DNA of 64,000 nt from Algoriphagus sp. GTDB lineage: Bacteria; Bacteroidota; Bacteroidia; Cytophagales; Cyclobacteriaceae. Shown here in pieces: positions 20,487-37,192 of the stretch (positions within the stretch are counted from its first letter, which is position 1; each line of letters opens with the position of its first letter). The notes beneath the pieces were generated by a model that was not told where the DNA came from, ran no database searches, and was given only the letters and a program-made list of their open reading frames with translations. The stretch is taken from assembly GCA_029945945.1 (NCBI GenBank), contig JAQSDM010000005.1, forward strand, positions 372,001-436,000. The letters are read 5' to 3'. The position numbers and the translations under genes are program-made.

Positions 20487-22607
20487 ATGGATCAATTTGT
20501 CATCAAACGAAATGGAAAATATGTGCCTTTTGAGGCTTTCAAGATAGAAGATGCTCTCAAGAAAGGATTTTCAAGTGTTCAACAGCCATACGATCCATCG
20601 GTTTTTGAAAGGCTTTTGATAAAGCTGGAATCGAGAGTAACCTGGGCGGTGGAGGAGGTGCAGGATTTGATCGAGAAGGAATTATTTGCGGTGGGGCTTT
20701 TTGAAGTTATGCGCTCCTTCATGGTGTATCGTCATACCCGAAAGTTGCAGCGTGAGCATGTGGCAGGACTCAATGAAGATACGACTTACGTGGATAGTAC
20801 GCAGACAATAGAGGAATATGTAAAGCAAACCGATTGGAGAATCAATGCCAATGCGAATACCTCGTATTCCAATGCCGGTTTGGTGAACAATGTCGCCGGA
20901 AAAATTATCGCCAATTACTGGCTTGATAAAGTCTATTCAAAGGAAGAAGGCTACGCACATCGCAATGGTGATATTCATATTCACGACTTGGATTGCCTCA
21001 CAGGGTATTGTGCCGGATGGAGTCTCAGAGTATTGCTCAATGAAGGATTCAATGGAGTCAGAGGAAGGGTTGAAAGCAAAGCGCCATCGCATTTCCGCGA
21101 AGCTTTGGGTCAGATGGCAAATTTTCTGGGAATTCTTCAAAGTGAATGGGCCGGAGCTCAGGCATTCAGTTCCTTCGATACGTATTTGGCTCCCTATGTT
21201 TTCAAAGATAATTTAAGCTACAAAGAGATTGAAAAAGCAATTCGATCCTTCGTCTATAATCTGAACGTCCCGGCCCGCTGGGGTCAGTCACCTTTTACCA
21301 ATATCACCCTGGACTGGGTTGTTCCTGAGGATCTGAAAGATCAAATGCCTACCAAAAATGACCTTCATTTATTTTTGGGATTGTATGATCCTGACCTTCT
21401 GGCTAAGGTAAAGGAAAGAGGAGCAAATCGCCCTGAGGATCTGACGTACAAAGATTTTCATCGGGAAATGAAGTTGATCAATAAGGCTTATTACAACATC
21501 ATGACCGAAGGAGATGCGAATGGGCAACCGTTTACTTTTCCCATTCCTACGGTCAATATCACGGAGGATTTTGATTGGTATGGAGAAAATACCGATTTGC
21601 TTTTTGAAAATACTGCTAAGATCGGCTCCTCGTACTTTCAGAATTTTATTGGCAGCCAATACACCTTGGATGCAAATGGAGAAAAGGTCGAAAATCCCAA
21701 TGCATACAAACCCAATGCTGTTCGGAGCATGTGTTGCAGACTTCAATTGGATTTGAGAGAATTGCTCAAGAGAGGAAACGGACTATTTGGAAGTGCTGAA
21801 ATGACCGGAAGTATCGGAGTCGTCACCATCAACATGGCAAGGCTGGGATACCTGTACAAAAACGATAAAAGCAGACTTTACAAAAGACTTGATCACTTGC
21901 TTGAACTCTCGAAATCTACTCTTGAGAAGAAGCGGGGCTTCATTCAAGAGTTGTATGACAGGGGACTTTATCCCTATACTAAGCGGTATTTGACTCATTT
22001 CAGAAACCATTTCTCCACCATCGGGGTCAACGGCATGAATGAAATGGTTCTCAATTTTACTTCAGAACAAGAAGACATTGCCGGAGATTTTGGTCAGCGA
22101 TTTGCCTCCGAGATTTTGGAACATATCCGTGGCAGAATGCGGGAGTTTCAGGAAGAAACCGGAAACCTCTACAATCTCGAGGCCACCCCGGCAGAGGGGA
22201 CTACTTACCGGTTTGCCAAAGAAGACAAGAAGCGCTACCCGGACATCATTCAGGCAGGAATGGAAGAGAATATTTACTATACAAACAGCTCTCAAATCCC
22301 CGTCGATTTTACCGATGATCCTTTTGAAGCATTGATGCTACAGGACGAGTTGCAATGTAAATACACCGGAGGTACAGTCCTTCACCTCTACATGCGGGAA
22401 AAAATCAGCACTCCGGAAGCCTGTCGAAATCTGGTCAGAAAAGTCCTCTCTAATTTCAAATTACCCTACATCACGGTGACTCCGGTATTCAGTATTTGTC
22501 CTGTTCACGGATATCTGAACGGTGAGCATGAATACTGCCCTCATTGTGATGAGTCTCTACTCGAAAAACTTAACCTAACCCCAAATACACATGCAAGTAA
22601 TCCATGA
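20487..22607 (+). CDS. nrdD: Anaerobic (class III) ribonucleoside-triphosphate reductase, large part, lacking the glycyl-radical segment
   Basis: A 706-residue NrdD. Residues 3-92 form an ATP-cone regulatory domain, followed by the catalytic ten-stranded barrel with family segments NLNVPARWGQSPFTN and the C-terminal zinc site C671-P-V-H674...C684-P-H-C687. In full-length relatives the zinc site is soon followed by the glycyl-radical segment (RV.GY.RPV..N.GK). Here the frame ends at 22607, only 20 residues after the last zinc Cys, with no such segment. The missing segment is encoded in another frame in the ORF that starts at 22591. NrdG follows. The enzyme makes dNTPs without oxygen; its activity would need the separately encoded radical segment to dock. 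Confidence 0.93.
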   Translation: MDQFVIKRNGKYVPFEAFKIEDALKKGFSSVQQPYDPSVFERLLIKLESRVTWAVEEVQDLIEKELFAVGLFEVMRSFMVYRHTRKLQREHVAGLNEDTTYVDSTQTIEEYVKQTDWRINANANTSYSNAGLVNNVAGKIIANYWLDKVYSKEEGYAHRNGDIHIHDLDCLTGYCAGWSLRVLLNEGFNGVRGRVESKAPSHFREALGQMANFLGILQSEWAGAQAFSSFDTYLAPYVFKDNLSYKEIEKAIRSFVYNLNVPARWGQSPFTNITLDWVVPEDLKDQMPTKNDLHLFLGLYDPDLLAKVKERGANRPEDLTYKDFHREMKLINKAYYNIMTEGDANGQPFTFPIPTVNITEDFDWYGENTDLLFENTAKIGSSYFQNFIGSQYTLDANGEKVENPNAYKPNAVRSMCCRLQLDLRELLKRGNGLFGSAEMTGSIGVVTINMARLGYLYKNDKSRLYKRLDHLLELSKSTLEKKRGFIQELYDRGLYPYTKRYLTHFRNHFSTIGVNGMNEMVLNFTSEQEDIAGDFGQRFASEILEHIRGRMREFQEETGNLYNLEATPAEGTTYRFAKEDKKRYPDIIQAGMEENIYYTNSSQIPVDFTDDPFEALMLQDELQCKYTGGTVLHLYMREKISTPEACRNLVRKVLSNFKLPYITVTPVFSICPVHGYLNGEHEYCPHCDESLLEKLNLTPNTHASNP

Positions 22608-22779
22608 AGTACAAGTTGAAAATGAGACTCAGTTTCTTTTGGAAAGAAATTCTGAGCGAAGAACAAAATGTCTGGTCTATACCCGCGTGATGGGATATCA
22701 TCGTCCGGTGGAGAGTTTTAATATTGGAAAAAAAGGTGAACATAAGCAGCGACAGCACTTTGCAGAAAACAGGAGTTGA
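22591..22779 (+). CDS. Separate glycyl-radical C-terminal domain of NrdD (62 residues)
   Basis: This 62-residue ORF starts at ATG 22591 and overlaps the end of nrdD by 17 nt in another frame. Residues 24-55 carry the glycyl-radical signature of class III ribonucleotide reductases: RRTKCLVYTRVMGYHRPV followed by FNIGKKGEHKQR. Gly35 is the expected radical site. It has its own ATG and about 22 residues before the signature. If nrdD were simply frameshifted, the linker between its zinc site and the radical motif would be far longer than I expect in intact homologues, which favours a true split gene. It overlaps the nrdG start by 56 nt or less. By analogy with GrcA/YfiD, which replaces the damaged radical domain of pyruvate formate-lyase, it may act as an exchangeable radical subunit; that is inference. 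Confidence 0.8.
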   Translation: MQVIHEVQVENETQFLLERNSERRTKCLVYTRVMGYHRPVESFNIGKKGEHKQRQHFAENRS

Positions 22780-23455
22780 AACCCTGCCAATATTCAGCAT
22801 TACACCGTTTACACTACTCGATTTTCCGGACAAAACTGCCTGCATTTTATGGTTTGCAGGTTGTAATATGCGGTGTGGCTATTGCTACAACCCGGAGATT
22901 GTCAAGGGCAAAGGCAAGCTGGGGCTTGCCGATGTCCTTGTTTTTTTAAAAAAACGGAAAGGCCTACTTGACGGGGTCGTGCTCAGTGGGGGAGAGTGTA
23001 CTCTTCATCCGGGGATAATTGAATTTGCCCGGGAAATAAAAGCCTTGGGAATGCAGATTAAGCTGGATACCAACGGAAGCCGTCCGGAGGTACTTGCAAA
23101 AATGATGAGCCAAAAAATGCTGGATTATGTGGCGCTGGATTTCAAATCTTTACCCGGAAGTTTTCAAAAAATCACCCGAAGTTCTTTTTTTGATCAGTTT
23201 GAGAAAAGCCTGAAACTCCTCCTTACCAACAACATCCCGATGGAGGTAAGGACGACGGTTCACTCATCTCAAATAAATGCAGAAGAGCTGTTCGAAATGA
23301 AGAATTTTTTGGTTTCCAGGGGATACAAAGGAAAGTATTACCTGCAGCATTTTGTGAATCAAACCATGACTCTGGAGGATTTGGGGCCAAGCAAAAAGCC
23401 TCAGGTTGATCAGTCAATAATTGCCTCCGAACCTCAATTTGTCTGGAGAAATTAA
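22724..23455 (+). CDS. nrdG: Anaerobic ribonucleotide reductase activating protein NrdG (radical SAM)
   Basis: A radical-SAM enzyme of up to 243 residues that installs the glycyl radical in NrdD. The 4Fe-4S motif CNMRCGYC (C-x3-C-x2-C) lies near residues 48-55, preceded by the typical FTLLDFPDKTA segment and followed by the SAM-binding segment VVLSGGECTLHP near 90-101. The start is uncertain: the frame opens with TTG at 22724, with GTG at 22736 and TTG at 22760 as alternatives, all inside the small glycyl-radical ORF. Translational coupling with that ORF is therefore likely. The protein is longer than E. coli NrdG (154 residues) and is closer to the PflA-like NrdG forms. Confidence 0.9.
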   Translation: MEKKVNISSDSTLQKTGVETLPIFSITPFTLLDFPDKTACILWFAGCNMRCGYCYNPEIVKGKGKLGLADVLVFLKKRKGLLDGVVLSGGECTLHPGIIEFAREIKALGMQIKLDTNGSRPEVLAKMMSQKMLDYVALDFKSLPGSFQKITRSSFFDQFEKSLKLLLTNNIPMEVRTTVHSSQINAEELFEMKNFLVSRGYKGKYYLQHFVNQTMTLEDLGPSKKPQVDQSIIASEPQFVWRN

Positions 23456-23532: not shown

Positions 23533-23559
23533 CAAAAAAGTGAAGCCCGAAGGCTCCAC
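23533..23559 (-). terminator. Terminator with TTCG tetraloop downstream of the NOD-like gene
   Basis: Read on the minus strand, GTGGAGCC-TTCG-GGCTTCAC forms an 8-bp stem (one mismatch) capped by a stable TTCG loop and followed by six T. It lies about 80 nt after the stop of the qNOR-family gene and separates it from the convergent nrdG. Confidence 0.85.
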
Positions 23560-23640
23560 TCTATCAGGGTGATTCGCAACTTAATCCTTGATTCGTTTAC
23601 TGCAATCGGACTTCCGAATTCTGTTTTTTTATCCGATCCA

Positions 23641-25977
23641 TCAATAAACCTTTTCTTTTTTAATACTGCCATTGACTGAAACTGTAGACATCGGTCTGCT
23701 GGGTTTTAGGTGTGCGGCACTTTTCAACACGAGCCAGGTAAGGGGCATGACTCCTCCCAGGAAAAACAAGGAGCCACCCACAATTCTCAGCCAGGTCATG
23801 GTTTGGAAAGGAGCGCTCTGGATGAATTCCTGAGATCTGGCAAACCAATAACCCTTATCAATAACAGTGAAGAGTTGATGAATTCCTGCAGGGAACAAGT
23901 CCATCAGGACCATGAGAATCAGCCCTCCGTTAATTGACCAGAATGAAATGGTAACCAATCGGGAATTCCATGCAGAAGGATTTACCAAAAACCTCAAGGC
24001 AAAGAGAATTGCAGCGATGGATAAATTGCCATAAACACCCATCAGCGCTGCGTGACCATGATTTACTGTCAGGTAGGTTCCATGTTCGTAGTAATTTGCA
24101 ATGGGAAGATTGATGATAAGCCCGAATACACCTGCTCCGAAGAAGTTCCAGAAATTAACACCAAGCAGAAACAGGAAAACTCCCGGCATCGCAAAGAGCG
24201 CAGAACGGTCTTTTAGATTTTCTTTGTTTAGAAGCGTGTAGGGCATTTTCTGCATTTTCCATGCTTCCAGAGTTAACAATATCAGAGGTACAACTTGCAG
24301 GGTGGAAAAGACGGAACCAAGGGCGAGCGTACCTACAGGCTTGGCATTCCAATAGAAATTGTGGGAAATCCCTAGCAATCCGGATCCGAGGAATAACAAT
24401 GCAGCCAGGTAAACGACTTTGACTACGGCTTGGCGATTTACTAATCCCATCATCACCATCATATAGCCGACGATAATTGTGGTAAAAACTTCGAAAAATG
24501 CCTCAACCCACATATGCACTACCATCCATCTCCAGAAGTCAGCCACGACGAAGTTGGTCTCAGGTGTAGCCACAAACCCGGATACGAGCAAAAGCAGGAT
24601 ACAGACGATGGCATAAACCAGCCAATTGGGAAGTTCCCAGGGTTTGCCTTTCTGGAATGATCCTTTCAATCCTCGGTAAACGATTATTGCCCAAAGAGCG
24701 AAAATTCCCAAAAGCATGTATTGATAGAGCCTGCCCAATTCCACAAATTCCCAACCCTGATGTCCCAGCCATCGGGACATGGAACCCATCATTCCTTGAG
24801 GGCCCATGTACATTCCCACGACTGAGCCGGCTACCATCACGAAGAATATTCCGAACAAGAGGTTGATGAGATTGAGCTGGCCTTCTGGTTCTTTTTTGGA
24901 AAGAAGGGGAAGAATGAAAAATGAAATTCCGACCCAGCAAGCTGAAATCCAGTACAAGGAAATCTGTACATGCCAACTTCGTGAGATGGTGACAGGGATG
25001 AGTTTCTGAAGATCAAAGCCAAAGAAATTGGTGAAACCTACAAAATCGTGTACCGTCAATACGCCCGCCAGAACCTGAAGGAGGAATAGTAAAATTGCAA
25101 CGTAGAAAAACTTGAAAGTGGCCCGCTGTGTAGGGGTAGGATGGTAGTTTCGAAGTTTCTCCTCGGTCACCATTTCCGAAGAACCCTTGGTGAGATAGGA
25201 TTCATTCAGTTGCTCAAACTGCCCATAGTAATACATGACAGCACCCAAACCTAAGATCAATGCCAACAACCCAATCATGCTCCAGACCATTGTGGAGGCA
25301 GTCGGAGTATTGCCCGCCTCCGGATCAAATGGCCAATTATGGGTGTAGCTGTATTTTTCTCCAGGCCTCTCCACGCTGCAAACCCATGCTCCCCAGAAGA
25401 AAAACTTGCTCAACTGCCGTATCTCGGTCTCATTGCTCAGGTAGCCTGCAGGTTTGAAAGCTTCCTTAAACTCCGGATCAGTGAACATGCTGAGATAGAA
25501 TTTTTCAATTTCTTGGGTAGCAAAAACCTGGGAATCCGAAAGCTTTGCAGTATTGCTTTCTTCGGCATATGCATTGGCCTTGATTTCTCCTTTCACCAAC
25601 TCCTGAATTCCGGATTTCTCCAAGTCAGAAACAGTTCCTATGGACGTATTGGAGTGAAAAGTTCGCATAGACATCGCGATCTCGTGCAGCGTTTGAGCGG
25701 TGAAATCAGGTCCTCGCAATGCACCGTCTCCAAACATACTTCCATATTCCATCAGGGCATACCGGTGGAAAACTTCTTGTCCGGCCAAAATATCTGATTT
25801 CGAGATCAGCACATTTCCTGATTGATCTACGTAATCCGGAATTGGCGGAGCCTCCTGATAAGTCTGGTAACCAATGAATATCAAACCTGTAAAACTGACT
25901 ACGAAAATGAGTGTAAACGGAAGCCACCAATTGCGAGGCTTCATGAGATAGTTGAGAAAGGATGTTTCGGGTTTCAT
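23641..25977 (-). CDS. nod: Putative nitric oxide dismutase (qNOR-family heme-copper oxidase homologue with NOD-type substitutions)
   Basis: A 778-residue membrane protein with the full build of quinol NO reductase: an N-terminal helix, a periplasmic cytochrome-c-like domain without CXXCH (about 40-225), then about 13 helices of the NorB fold. Heme ligands H336 (SRSWHVQ) and H640/H642 (NHGH) and FeB ligands H488 (HMWVEAFFE, with E492) and H539 are present. Four positions differ from canonical qNOR (Geobacillus numbering from memory): FeB ligand H560 is Asn540 (ISHNFYW), E581 is Gln561 (TLQVVPL), quinol-site E332 is Gly314 (VHDFVGF), and D746 is Gly735 (RIVGGS). This is the pattern described for NOD of Methylomirabilis and gammaproteobacterium HdN1, proposed to convert 2 NO to N2 and O2 without external electrons. 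A divergent NO reductase is the alternative. It lies 62 nt downstream of an NsrR-like regulator. Confidence 0.78.
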   Translation of the reverse strand: MKPETSFLNYLMKPRNWWLPFTLIFVVSFTGLIFIGYQTYQEAPPIPDYVDQSGNVLISKSDILAGQEVFHRYALMEYGSMFGDGALRGPDFTAQTLHEIAMSMRTFHSNTSIGTVSDLEKSGIQELVKGEIKANAYAEESNTAKLSDSQVFATQEIEKFYLSMFTDPEFKEAFKPAGYLSNETEIRQLSKFFFWGAWVCSVERPGEKYSYTHNWPFDPEAGNTPTASTMVWSMIGLLALILGLGAVMYYYGQFEQLNESYLTKGSSEMVTEEKLRNYHPTPTQRATFKFFYVAILLFLLQVLAGVLTVHDFVGFTNFFGFDLQKLIPVTISRSWHVQISLYWISACWVGISFFILPLLSKKEPEGQLNLINLLFGIFFVMVAGSVVGMYMGPQGMMGSMSRWLGHQGWEFVELGRLYQYMLLGIFALWAIIVYRGLKGSFQKGKPWELPNWLVYAIVCILLLLVSGFVATPETNFVVADFWRWMVVHMWVEAFFEVFTTIIVGYMMVMMGLVNRQAVVKVVYLAALLFLGSGLLGISHNFYWNAKPVGTLALGSVFSTLQVVPLILLTLEAWKMQKMPYTLLNKENLKDRSALFAMPGVFLFLLGVNFWNFFGAGVFGLIINLPIANYYEHGTYLTVNHGHAALMGVYGNLSIAAILFALRFLVNPSAWNSRLVTISFWSINGGLILMVLMDLFPAGIHQLFTVIDKGYWFARSQEFIQSAPFQTMTWLRIVGGSLFFLGGVMPLTWLVLKSAAHLKPSRPMSTVSVNGSIKKEKVY

Positions 25978-26042
25978 AGTGTGTTTGGTAAAGGCTTAAT
26001 TCATATTTAAGAGTATTTTATCTTATTTAAAATCAAAAAAAA

Positions 26043-26480
26043 TCAATCGTCCAGACGGAATTCCTGAGAGCGGATTTTTTCGCCCAATGTAGCCAGGCTG
26101 GTTTCGGTAAAATTCTGTTGAATTTTGGTTTTCATCTCCTTCCAGAATTCGTGAACAGGGCAGGGCTTGGCTGTTCCGCAATTAGGCAAACCTATCAGGC
26201 ACTTATCAAAATAATCCTCACCCTCCAGCGCTTTGACCACATCGATCAACATGATTTGATCCGCTGGTCTTGCTAAAGCCACTCCGCCTGATGGTCCTCT
26301 GTAAGAAATTAGAATTCCCTTTGCCGTCAATTCCCTGAATATCTTGGTGACAAAGTGGAATGAAAGATTCAATTCATCAGAGATTTGCCGGATGCTCATG
26401 TAGGAATTTTCAGATGGATAAGCCACTAAATAAAGGATTGCTCTAAGACCATACTTCCCTACCTGAGAGAGTGCTTTCAT
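26043..26480 (-). CDS. Rrf2-family Fe-S transcriptional regulator (NsrR/IscR-like)
   Basis: A 145-residue Rrf2 regulator. The N-terminal winged helix (KYGLRAILYLVA, then SIRQISDELNLSFHFVTKIFRELTAKG) binds DNA. The Fe-S ligands are C94, C101 and C107, with His110 nearby, in the segment KCLIGLPNCGTAKPCPVH; spacing C-x6-C-x5-C is close to NsrR and IscR. It is directly upstream of the NOD-like gene on the same strand (62-nt gap), so NO sensing through the cluster is the obvious role. A perfect 9-bp inverted repeat abuts its start codon, which suggests autoregulation and regulation of the downstream gene by read-through. Confidence 0.88.
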   Translation of the reverse strand: MKALSQVGKYGLRAILYLVAYPSENSYMSIRQISDELNLSFHFVTKIFRELTAKGILISYRGPSGGVALARPADQIMLIDVVKALEGEDYFDKCLIGLPNCGTAKPCPVHEFWKEMKTKIQQNFTETSLATLGEKIRSQEFRLDD

Positions 26481-26505
26481 ATTTCAGATTATTTTGTCTG
26501 AAATA
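26480..26505 (-). promoter_or_regulatory. Inverted repeat at the rrf2 start codon, probable operator
   Basis: The sequence TATTTCAGA, an 8-nt spacer and TCTGAAATA form a perfect 9-bp inverted repeat that touches the A of the rrf2 ATG. The size and AT-rich symmetric form fit operators of dimeric Rrf2 proteins. Binding there would block transcription or translation of the rrf2-NOD unit. Specific recognition is inferred. Confidence 0.55.
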
Positions 26506-26628: not shown

Positions 26629-26662
26629 AAAAAACCTGTCAGAAATGAATCTGACAGGTTTT
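26629..26662 (-). terminator. Strong terminator downstream of the URO-D-like gene
   Basis: A perfect 13-bp stem AAAACCTGTCAGA / TCTGACAGGTTTT with a 6-nt loop is followed on the minus strand by a run of six T. It lies about 60 nt after the stop of the URO-D-like gene and insulates it from the rrf2-NOD unit. The plus strand also has a T-rich tail, so it may act in both directions. Confidence 0.9.
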
Positions 26663-33619: not shown

Positions 33620-35299
33620 ATGAAAACCAAAGCAATAAGCATTTTACCGATGATCATCCTCTTGATTTTCGGTTCCCAATCGATCGCCCAGACTCCGGTT
33701 GGGAAGCGTCCCAACATCATCTTTATCATGTCCGATGATCACGCCTATCAGGCTATTTCGGCGTATGACAACAAACTTATTGAGACTCCGAATATTGACC
33801 GGATTGCAAAAATGGGGATGCTCTTTACCAATGCCAGCGTCACCAATTCAATTTGTGCGCCTTCCCGAGCGACTATTTTTACAGGGAAGCATTCCCATCT
33901 GAATGGAAAAATCGACAATCATTTTCCTTTCGATACGACCAATGTCACCTTTCCTCAGATCCTTCAGGAAGCCGGATATCAGACCGCAATGTTTGGAAAG
34001 CTTCATTTTGGAAACAGTCCCAAAGGATTCGACCAGTTTAAGATTCTTCCCGGTCAGGGTTCTTATTACAACCCTGACTTTATCACCAAAAATGAAGGCA
34101 ATATTAAAGTGGAGGGATATGTGACCGATATCATTACAGACATGACTTTGAATTGGCTGGAAGAAGAGCGGAATCCCGATCAGCCATTCATGTTGATGTA
34201 CTTGCACAAAGCGCCCCATCGCTCCTGGCTGATGGCCGAGCGGCATATGGAAGAATTTACAAACAAGACTTTCCCGGAGCCTTCGACACTTTTTGATGAT
34301 TATTCAGGTCGAACTCCAGCCGCTGCGGAAGCCGAGATGAATATCCTGAAACATATGGGCTGGTCCGGAGACAATAAGGTTTTTCCGGAGGTAATGGACG
34401 AATTGGGAATTGCAGAAATCGGTGTTGACAAAAGACGCTTTGAAAATGAGGTCGGGCGATTCAATCCTTCCCAAAAAGAAAACTTCATGGCATCCTATAC
34501 CAAAGTCAATGATAGGTTCAAAAAAGACTATCCTTCCATGACTCAGGAAGACAAAATGAAGTGGAAATATCAACGCTACATGCAGGACTACCTGGGTACG
34601 ATTCAGGCAGTGGATGAAAATGTGGGAAGGTTGATTGATTACCTGGAAGCCAATGACATGATGGAAAATACCATCATTGTCTATACCTCTGATCAGGGGT
34701 TTTACCTCGGCGAGCATGGCTGGTTTGACAAGAGATTCGTGTACGATGAATCCTTCAAAACTCCGCTTTTGGTGGCTTGGCCGGGAAAAACCAAACCAGG
34801 TACCCGATCCGATGAATTGGTTCAAAATCTCGATTTTGCGCAGACCTTTTTAGATGCCGCAGGTGTGTCGGCTCCAAGTGACATGCAAGGAGAAAGTCTG
34901 GTTCCGCTGCTTTCCGGTCAGCCTGAGAAGTGGACAAGAGATGCGGTTTATTACCATTATTATGAATATCCGGCTGAGCATATGGTCAACCGACACTATG
35001 CCATTGTGACCAAGGAGTACAAATTGATCCATTATTATTTTGTGGAAGATCAGTGGGAGCTGATTGTCCGGAAAAAGGATCCGCAGGAATTAACCAACGT
35101 CTACAACGATCCGGCTTACGCAGAGATTAAGCAGGAATTGCATGTCCGACTCGAAAAGCTCAGGGAAAAGTATAAAGACAATACTGACCTGAGTCAGGGA
35201 TACATCGATTTGTTGATGAATGATGTTGCCCAAAACAAGGTTTTTGGAGTCAGTCCTGCGAAAGGCGAAGAAATCCTGAAGCGGAGAAAGGAAAATTAA
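33620..35299 (+). CDS. S1-family sulfatase (first of tandem pair)
   Basis: A 559-residue exported sulfatase with signal peptide ending SIAQ (residue 24). The metal site starts with MSDD (D39, D40), and the C-x-P-S-R motif CAPSR has Cys79, to be converted to formylglycine, followed by TGK. Later metal and substrate residues are seen in TSDQGFYLGEHGWFDKR. It hydrolyses sulfate esters, most likely from a sulfated polysaccharide or glycosaminoglycan; the closest look is to the N-acetylglucosamine-6-sulfatase / iduronate-sulfatase group. It is a close paralogue of the next gene, from which it is separated by a terminator and about 190 nt. The maturase it needs (anSME or FGE) is not in the window. 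Confidence 0.92.
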   Translation: MKTKAISILPMIILLIFGSQSIAQTPVGKRPNIIFIMSDDHAYQAISAYDNKLIETPNIDRIAKMGMLFTNASVTNSICAPSRATIFTGKHSHLNGKIDNHFPFDTTNVTFPQILQEAGYQTAMFGKLHFGNSPKGFDQFKILPGQGSYYNPDFITKNEGNIKVEGYVTDIITDMTLNWLEEERNPDQPFMLMYLHKAPHRSWLMAERHMEEFTNKTFPEPSTLFDDYSGRTPAAAEAEMNILKHMGWSGDNKVFPEVMDELGIAEIGVDKRRFENEVGRFNPSQKENFMASYTKVNDRFKKDYPSMTQEDKMKWKYQRYMQDYLGTIQAVDENVGRLIDYLEANDMMENTIIVYTSDQGFYLGEHGWFDKRFVYDESFKTPLLVAWPGKTKPGTRSDELVQNLDFAQTFLDAAGVSAPSDMQGESLVPLLSGQPEKWTRDAVYYHYYEYPAEHMVNRHYAIVTKEYKLIHYYFVEDQWELIVRKKDPQELTNVYNDPAYAEIKQELHVRLEKLREKYKDNTDLSQGYIDLLMNDVAQNKVFGVSPAKGEEILKRRKEN

Positions 35300-35485: not shown

Positions 35486-37192
35486 ATGAAGAACCGAATT
35501 TCTCTACTCTTATCGACATTTCTGCTTTTGCTGACTTTCAGTTGTAAAACTGATCAGACAGAAAAAGAAGAGGCCAAAAGACCCAACATCATCTTTATCA
35601 TGTCCGATGATCACGCCTATCAGGCGATTTCAGCTTATGATAATCGATTGATAGAAACGCCAAACATTGATCGGATTGCAAAAATGGGCATGCTCTTTAC
35701 CAATGCCAGCGTGACCAACTCGATCTGTGCACCTTCCCGGGCTACGATCCTGACGGGGAAGCATTCTCATATGAACGGGAAGATCGACAACCATTTTCCT
35801 TTCGATACGACGAATATCACGTTTCCTCAGATCCTTCAAACCGCAGGTTACCAAACTGCTATGTTTGGCAAACTACACTTTGGGAATAGTCCCAAAGGAT
35901 TTGATCAGTTTAAAATCCTGCCTGATCAGGGTTCTTACTACAATCCTGACTTCATCACCAAAAATGACGGGAATATCAAAGTGGATGGTTACGTGACGGA
36001 TATTGTGACAGATATGACATTGGACTGGCTTCAGAATGAGCGAAAGGCAGATGCGCCTTTTATGCTGATGTACTTACACAAGGCTCCTCATCGGGAATGG
36101 CTTCCGGCCGAGCGTCATTTGGAGGAATACATCAGGAAAACTTTCCCTGAACCAGCCACACTTTTTGATGATTATTCAGGAAGAGGAACTGCTGCCAAAG
36201 AAGCGGAAATGAACCTGCTGAAGCATATGAACTGGTCAGGAGATTCCAAACTTTATCCCGAGGTACTAGATGAAATGGGTATTCCTGACGAGTCGGGTTG
36301 GGACAAAGCTGCCTTTGAACGTGAAGTGGGAAGACTGAATCCTGCTCAGCGGGCCAATTGGGATAAAGCCTACTTGAAAATGAATGAGGATTTCAAAATT
36401 GCCTATCCTAAAATGACCGAGAAGGAAAAAATGCAATGGAGATATCAGCGCTACATGCAGGATTACCTGGGAACCATTGCTTCGGTCGATGAGAATGTCG
36501 GTCGGTTGTTGGATTACCTGGAGGCAAATGGCCTGATGGAAAACACGATCATTGTCTATACTTCCGACCAGGGTTTTTACCTGGGCGAGCATGGCTGGTT
36601 TGATAAGCGCTTTATCTACAATGAGTCGTTTAAAACGCCACTTTTGGTTTCCTGGAAAGGAAAAGTTCAACCCGGAAGCAAGTCAGATGAACTGGTTCAA
36701 AACCTGGATTTTGCCCAGACATTTCTCGAAGCTGCCGGAGTCGCGGCGCCTGCGGACATGCAGGGAGAAAGTCTGATTCCAATTTTGACCGGAAACACTG
36801 AAAAATGGACCCGGGATGCAGTCTATTACCATTACTATGAATATCCGGCGGTGCACATGGTCAAGCGGCATTATGCCATCGTGACCAAAGAGTATAAGCT
36901 GGTTCACTACTATTTTGATGTAGATGAGTGGGAGCTGATCGACCGAGTGAAGGATCCGAATGAGATGAAAAATGTCTATGACGATCCTGCCTATGCTGAA
37001 ATCAAAAAAGACCTGCACGCCAGATTGGAAAAACTCAGAGAAAAATATGGCGACAGTTCAGAATTGAGTCAAAGCTATATTGACCGATATCTGGAGGATA
37101 TTTCGAAGAGGAGAGCTTTTGGAGCCAACCAGCAAAAGGTTAAAGAAATACTGGAAAAGAAAGGATTGCAACCCGCCTACAAGTTTGAGTAA
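35486..37192 (+). CDS. S1-family sulfatase lipoprotein (second of tandem pair)
   Basis: A 568-residue sulfatase. Unlike its neighbour it has a lipoprotein signal (LLTFSC, Cys20). The active site is the same: MSDD near 39-42, CAPSR with Cys81, and TSDQGFYLGEHGWFDKR. Over the first 200 residues after the signal it is nearly identical to the preceding sulfatase (for example NRIDRIAKMG-type stretches), so the pair arose by tandem duplication; divergence is greatest around residues 270-300 and at the C-terminus. Lipidation suggests this copy is membrane- or surface-bound and the other one free in the periplasm. Confidence 0.92.
   Translation: MKNRISLLLSTFLLLLTFSCKTDQTEKEEAKRPNIIFIMSDDHAYQAISAYDNRLIETPNIDRIAKMGMLFTNASVTNSICAPSRATILTGKHSHMNGKIDNHFPFDTTNITFPQILQTAGYQTAMFGKLHFGNSPKGFDQFKILPDQGSYYNPDFITKNDGNIKVDGYVTDIVTDMTLDWLQNERKADAPFMLMYLHKAPHREWLPAERHLEEYIRKTFPEPATLFDDYSGRGTAAKEAEMNLLKHMNWSGDSKLYPEVLDEMGIPDESGWDKAAFEREVGRLNPAQRANWDKAYLKMNEDFKIAYPKMTEKEKMQWRYQRYMQDYLGTIASVDENVGRLLDYLEANGLMENTIIVYTSDQGFYLGEHGWFDKRFIYNESFKTPLLVSWKGKVQPGSKSDELVQNLDFAQTFLEAAGVAAPADMQGESLIPILTGNTEKWTRDAVYYHYYEYPAVHMVKRHYAIVTKEYKLVHYYFDVDEWELIDRVKDPNEMKNVYDDPAYAEIKKDLHARLEKLREKYGDSSELSQSYIDRYLEDISKRRAFGANQQKVKEILEKKGLQPAYKFE

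Follow-up and report, generated by a model that had tools for sequence, protein, structure and literature searches.

The stretch of DNA analysed here (the window) comprises 64,000 nucleotides of an Algoriphagus sp. genome (GenBank assembly GCA_029945945.1, contig JAQSDM010000005.1, positions 372,001 to 436,000), and its minus strand carries an undisrupted open reading frame, which we call nod (23641..25977), for a 778-aa protein with the fold of the nitric oxide (NO) reductase qNOR that belongs to the putative NO dismutase (NOD) clade of qNOR-like membrane proteins. Directly upstream on the same strand lies a gene for a 145-aa regulator of the Rrf2 family (26043..26480), and two predicted operators accompany the pair. 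The nod protein combines the Pfam domain NorB_cytochrome_c-like, which is the N-terminal domain of qNOR, with a COX1-type core, and its N-terminal hydrophilic domain has no CxxCH motif and therefore no heme c site. The closest solved relative is the Geobacillus qNOR 3ayf (E 1.1e-162), which is also the top match in the PDB (TM 0.85/0.87) of an AlphaFold2 model of the protein (pLDDT 79.5), in which 14 helices are, by our count, of membrane-spanning length.

The nod protein shares with the canonical qNORs (3ayf, 8bgw and 8zgp) the fold, the N-terminal domain without heme c, the heme ligands, and H508, E512 and H559, which are the FeB ligands H488, E492 and H539 of the nod protein; H336, H640 and H642 are also retained when the protein is aligned to 3ayf. 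It differs from 3ayf at four positions, whose codons all lie on the minus strand. The third FeB ligand, His560, is replaced by N540 (24358..24360), Glu581 near the catalytic center by Q561 (24295..24297), and the quinol-site residues Glu332 and Asp746 by G314 (25036..25038) and G735 (23773..23775), so that neither the three FeB histidines, nor the catalytic Glu, nor the quinol-site Glu and Asp that characterize a canonical qNOR are all in place. An earlier sequence-only reading of this DNA had named these residues and positions correctly throughout, and the FeB ligands H488 and E492 and the heme ligands H336 and H640, which it had described as kept, are indeed so in the 3ayf alignment.

To place these changes in the family, we used an alignment of 355 rows, 337 of NOD type (from two protein searches and the genome searches) and 18 of NOR type, in which Asn540 occurs in 337 rows, all with Gln561, and His540 in exactly the 18 NOR rows. 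Residues were counted in two NOD groups of 162 and 164 rows against 16 NOR rows, with 11 NOD rows (L021, L047, L072, L074-L080 and L107) and 2 NOR rows (L083 and L087) outside the counts. Position 540 is Asn in 326/326 NOD rows and His in 16/16 NOR rows, and position 561 is Gln in 326/326 and Glu in 16/16, respectively; because the rows include near-duplicates and the NOD rows are the best matches of the query P0001 and of HdN1, these counts are no measure of the frequency of exceptions. Chance or misread residues are ruled out by this pattern together with the 3ayf alignment, and so is an ordinary qNOR whose close relatives restore the ligands, as 0/326 NOD rows restore position 540 or 561. 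The same counts bear on whether the protein could be a decayed qNOR that serves as an NO sponge or sensor with slow or no turnover. One FeB ligand and the catalytic Glu are gone, as decay would have it, but the Asn and Gln in their place are invariant and the heme and remaining metal ligands are retained, which looks like selection for another state, and we therefore regard decay as very unlikely.

In a tree of 116 rows that was built quickly with LG+G4, and for which the program flagged long qNOR branches, the 102 NOD rows were set apart by a branch with a support (SH-aLRT) of 100, with HdN1 and Muricauda among them and the query inside, which upholds the earlier assignment of the protein as a putative NOD. 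The clade is divided into two halves. The query lies in a half of 49 rows (support 99), whose named members are Bacteroidota except for one Bdellovibrionota row, and the other half of 52 rows (support 100) contains HdN1, Proteobacteria, Planctomycetota and others, while L021 stands alone. For the residue counts, the halves were assigned by the search that found each row (P0001-P0120 and P0121-P0240), not individually by the tree.

The two halves carry the same active-site letters (Asn540 and Gln561) throughout, and they differ in the quinol site. In the Bacteroidota half, Glu332 is replaced by Gly in 139/162 rows (Glu is retained in 3 and Asp found in 11) and Asp746 by Gly in 149/162, but the quinol-site His328 is retained in 147/162, in the window as H310 (25048..25050, minus strand), and Phe336 in 135/162, in the window as F318. 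In the HdN1 half, His328 is retained in 0/164 rows (Thr in 110), and 155/164 have a gap at Phe336. The quinol site of the query is thus half dismantled, and the earlier statement that NODs lack this site is fully true of the HdN1 half only; for the query and most of the Bacteroidota half it applies to Glu332 and Asp746 and fails for His328 and Phe336. Some genomes hold two nod-like genes. A Flavobacteriales metagenome-assembled genome (MAG; G396) has two in tandem (L069:7637-9907 and 10248 onward) with 58% and 42-44% identity to the query, as if there were one copy per half (the second copy is outside the tree), and three genomes with Planctomycetota loci (G365, G372 and G387; L030, L038 and L057) each have two with 55-57% and 46-47% identity, again as if one came from each half (the 55-57% copies are outside the tree).

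The arrangement of the nod gene with its regulator recurs in relatives. The Rrf2 gene stands directly upstream of nod on the same strand in 14/14 loci examined, with a gap of 65 bp in the window and a similar one in 12 other loci; in L011, a Lewinellaceae locus, the gap measures about 300 bp. Its product is recognized by Pfam Rrf2 and exceeds the cut-off of NCBIfam rrf2_super, and its three cysteines (C94, C101 and C107) are conserved in 14/14 loci, as is expected of NsrR for the binding of an Fe-S cluster, so that such a cluster is predicted and the protein is a candidate NO sensor. Predicted operator 1 (26481..26504, no strand assigned) is the palindrome ATTTCAGA-N8-TCTGAAAT and abuts the Rrf2 start codon; a palindromic site precedes Rrf2 in 14/14 loci, perfect in the window only and imperfect in the 13 others, and the looser 22-base pattern would be expected 0.03 times by chance in the window. 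Predicted operator 2 (26005..26028, no strand assigned) is a weaker copy between Rrf2 and nod with a score of 14.1, and a site occupies the same place in 8/8 scanned relatives with the Rrf2-nod pair (L003, L006, L007, L009, L010, L011, L019 and L059, with the duplicate stretches L122, L128 and L131 left out), where it scores 15.6-25.3. Stem-loops followed by T runs flank the pair on both sides, namely a terminator-like stem-loop after nod (23537..23562, minus strand) and a 13-pair stem-loop before the unit (26631..26662), which is listed on the plus strand and whose stem is followed by Ts on the minus strand too; the region has 7 terminator-like sites against 3.9 +/- 2.1 in shuffled sequences, a modest excess.

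The strict operator pattern occurs at 4 places genome-wide, three of them within reading frames and the fourth at the nod unit, and the genome's own nos cluster lies in a stretch that has no site above 12.1, so that a broad Rrf2 regulon was rejected, although the matrix scan is a weak test of a wider regulon because the matrix derives from these very sites (eleven, the weakest at 26.1; the sites of L011, at 23.1, and L019, at 18.5, were not used in building it). Ten more distant nod stretches (L012, L018, L098, L101, L125, L126 and L132-L135) have no site of 13 or more, the best being 12.7, so that not every Bacteroidota nod has the operator.

We see about an even chance that nod is an NO-defence enzyme, which would clear the NO made by neighbouring organisms by the predicted reaction 2 NO -> N2 + O2 when the adjacent Rrf2 protein, predicted to sense NO, responds to it. 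The Rrf2 protein would hold an Fe-S cluster that is destroyed by NO, and after loss of the cluster it would leave both predicted operators. Two NO molecules may bind at heme b3 and FeB and react with little or no supply of electrons from outside, and terminal oxidases would use up the small yield of O2. Such a cell would be a non-denitrifier that respires N2O beside denitrifiers and has to shield its NosZ, its Fe-S enzymes and its class III ribonucleotide reductase from their NO. This role would be in line with the diagnostic residues and the clade shared with HdN1 and Muricauda, with the recurrent Rrf2-nod order, cysteine triad and palindromic sites, and with the nos genes and the nitrite reductase inventory described below. 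As to the choice between N2 + O2 and N2O as products, the shared active-site letters speak for the O2-forming chemistry proposed for HdN1 and Methylomirabilis oxyfera, and the nos linkage described below, the retained quinol His and the anaerobic neighbours call for caution on O2 production.

The genome to which the window belongs (4.84 Mb, 14 contigs, completeness listed as 100%) was searched within a genus of 72 genomes, and by its nod protein it is nearest to Algoriphagus. P0001 matched a single nod in it and nothing else, so that neither qNOR nor cNOR is present at the sensitivity of this search, which covered these two types, and non-canonical NORs (eNOR, sNOR, etc.) and other NO consumers were not searched. 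NosZ is present on a contig other than that of nod, where it is clustered with an Rrf2 gene, RIC/YtfE and genes that we named NosL, NosD and NosF from sequence, and a profile comparison of a nos-cluster protein with NOD gave no relation (probability 6%). The best NirK match in this genome reaches 31.1 bits, where the cut-off is 296.3, NarG has nothing above its cut-off and NrfA was not found in the search. There is no full-length NirS either, as the best Cytochrom_D1 match (26.3 bits, slightly above the loose Pfam cut-off of 25.5) is limited to positions 8-75 of 368; the full-length NirS found in one of 295 genomes scores 371.6. One 1178-aa NapA-like frame scores below the cut-off for NapA and may be assimilatory.

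This inventory bears on oxygenic denitrification, in which nitrite would be reduced to NO, the NO dismutated and the O2 fed to oxygenases in an intra-aerobic metabolism, and part of which the sequence-only reading had proposed for this organism. Membership of the NOD clade is in favour, as the same was proposed for Methylomirabilis oxyfera and HdN1 (PMC3413370). The pathway finds no support in this genome because the searched nitrite reductases and a second NOR were not found in it, and no oxygenase was recognized among the nod neighbours examined, the rest of the genome not having been searched for oxygenases. We therefore consider oxygenic denitrification unlikely here.

We also surveyed 295 Cyclobacteriaceae genomes, in which nosZ was counted as present at E <=1e-60 (166 genomes, 162 of them at or above the cut-off). 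Identity and length served to separate qNOR from cNOR, and active-site letters were checked for those qNORs and cNORs that have loci. Two short ambiguous fragments (G156 and G157), two matches of <=28 bits (G088 and G167) and second matches of about 20 bits in G344 and G164 were dropped before counting. The nod gene occurs in 23/295 genomes, in three of them (G079, G180 and G348) in pieces. With nod, 21/23 genomes have nosZ, as against 145/272 without it (Fisher p 2.8e-4, among genomes that are related to one another), and by genus the excess is weak, since 11/12 nod genera have a nod genome with nosZ and 65/84 genera have a nosZ-model match of any strength. When both genes are present, nod and nosZ lie within 25 kb of each other in 10 of 21 genomes (6 genera), farther apart on the same contig in 3 and on different contigs in 8, among them the genome of the window. 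Three species, A. aquaeductus, A. mannitolivorans and A. alkaliphilus, have in the nos cluster that adjoins nod the NO-repair gene ytfE/RIC and a second Rrf2 gene.

The linkage of nod with nosZ is also what would be expected if the protein were an electron-accepting NO reductase that turns NO into N2O for NosZ, and if nod in Bacteroidota made no oxygen. Like the nosZ excess, two further observations favour this explanation: qNOR, recognized by 35-38% identity, lies 1-15 kb from nosZ in at least 7 Cyclobacteriaceae genomes, while nod and qNOR occur together in 0/23 nod genomes, and the quinol site retains H310 and F318 in most rows of the Bacteroidota half. On the other hand, E581Q and D746G remove residues tied to catalysis and quinol binding in Ettwig 2012 (PMC3413370), and the HdN1 half shares both changes. 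Six nod genomes already have cNOR, and the statistics are subject to the kinship and the weak genus-level excess mentioned above. Moreover, 110 nosZ genomes have none of nod, qNOR and cNOR, and nosZ can therefore do without an NO-reducing partner. We regard a reductase as possible but doubtful, and we give about the same odds to a combined version in which nod, in Bacteroidota that respire N2O and make no NO, is the NO-defence arm of the nos system, with its half quinol site serving an NO reductase that feeds N2O to NosZ. If nod were such a nos-linked reductase, it would be no marker of oxygen production in the Bacteroidota half.

NirK was found in 6/23 nod genomes, which are exactly the six that also have cNOR, and NirK goes with cNOR in 23/33. 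Among the 17 genomes that have nod and no other NOR (nod-only), NirK was found in none, as against 46/278 of the others (p 0.085); 15/17 have none of NirK, NirS and NrfA, and 2/17 have NrfA. The one full-length NirS among the 295 genomes is in a genome without nod. The cultured species A. mannitolivorans (G023) and A. aquaeductus (G004) have nod, nosZ and NrfA, and no NirK, NirS, cNOR or qNOR was found in them.

Outside the Cyclobacteriaceae, 49 genomes were reached via 50 of 72 loci, 10 of Bacteroidota and 39 of other phyla. Nine of the 10 Bacteroidota genomes have nosZ, within 25 kb of nod in 4, although 3 of these 4 are closely related Flagellimonas/Muricauda types. The distance of nosZ from nod was <=25 kb in 0/39 non-Bacteroidota genomes, many of which are fragmented MAGs, and about 33 kb in G385. 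A full-length qNOR-like gene (32-37% identity) accompanies nod in 7/49 genomes, which counts against a reductase that takes the place of qNOR. One of the seven is HdN1, whose genome also has nosZ and two cNOR-like genes.

Several points weigh against NO defence by dismutation. No NOD enzyme has been isolated and characterized, according to PMC13386854. With His328 and Phe336 retained, the protein may still take up electrons and form N2O, and nosZ and nod are on different contigs in the window's own genome. Making O2 beside nosZ and nrdD would be odd, as these are genes of anaerobic life and O2 destroys class III ribonucleotide reductase. In addition, the lack of NirK in nod-only genomes is not significant, NrfA is present in the two cultured nod-only relatives, and the Rrf2 protein reaches 53.8 bits with the NsrR model, short of its cut-off of 182. 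A role for nod as the sole NO sink is also unproven, as eNOR, sNOR and similar enzymes and other NO consumers were outside the NOR search.

The NOD features as such are not new. They were defined by Ettwig 2012, where Muricauda was already included (PMC3413370), and nod was reported in Algoriphagus MAG-31, of the same genus group as the query, and in Sediminibacterium (Ruff 2023, PMC10264387), so that NOD outside methane oxidizers and in Bacteroidota is already in print. PMC13386854 describes a Bacteroidota NOD clade, which like Sediminibacterium belongs to the same phylum as the query, mentions a possible role in NO detoxification and, citing Elbon 2024, places an NsrR gene close to nod in Cecembia calidifontis. 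The available parts of PMC10264387 and PMC13386854 describe no Rrf2-nod unit with two operators, nos linkage or missing nitrite reductases, and our literature search, including parts of PMC12285268, PMC13386854 and PMC10359470, returned no title on linkage of nod and nosZ. The putative NODs of HdN1, Muricauda ruestringensis and Methylomirabilis oxyfera (DAMO_2434/2437) share with the query H560N, E581Q, the loss of Asp746, the heme ligands and the clade, a likeness compared directly for HdN1 (L064, P0121) and other Muricauda strains and by description for Methylomirabilis oxyfera and Muricauda ruestringensis; the Methylomirabilis oxyfera protein was not seen by name among the 120 matches listed in each of the two protein searches, most of which are unnamed.

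The cultured nod-only relatives make the question of dark oxygen production by NOD directly testable, because NO fed to A. mannitolivorans or A. aquaeductus would meet little else among the NO enzymes searched. The nosZ linkage and the adjacent Rrf2 operators also suggest that counts of nod are unsafe as evidence of oxygenic denitrification in Bacteroidota.

Beyond the unit, nrdD for a class III ribonucleotide reductase (20487..22607, plus strand) and a gene for an nrdG2-type activase (22724..23455, plus strand) are conserved neighbours of nod; nrdD and nrdG adjoin nod in several loci of Algoriphagus, Cecembia, Indibacter, Mariniradius and Aquiflexum, a hint that the nod locus is used anaerobically. 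In several relatives (L131:4929-5952 and others), nod is followed by genes for an OsmC-like protein and a protein with a hemerythrin domain, and the same neighbour search found neither in the window. Farther along the window, two adjacent sulfatase-like genes (33620-35299 and 35486-37192) appear by eye to be close copies of one another.
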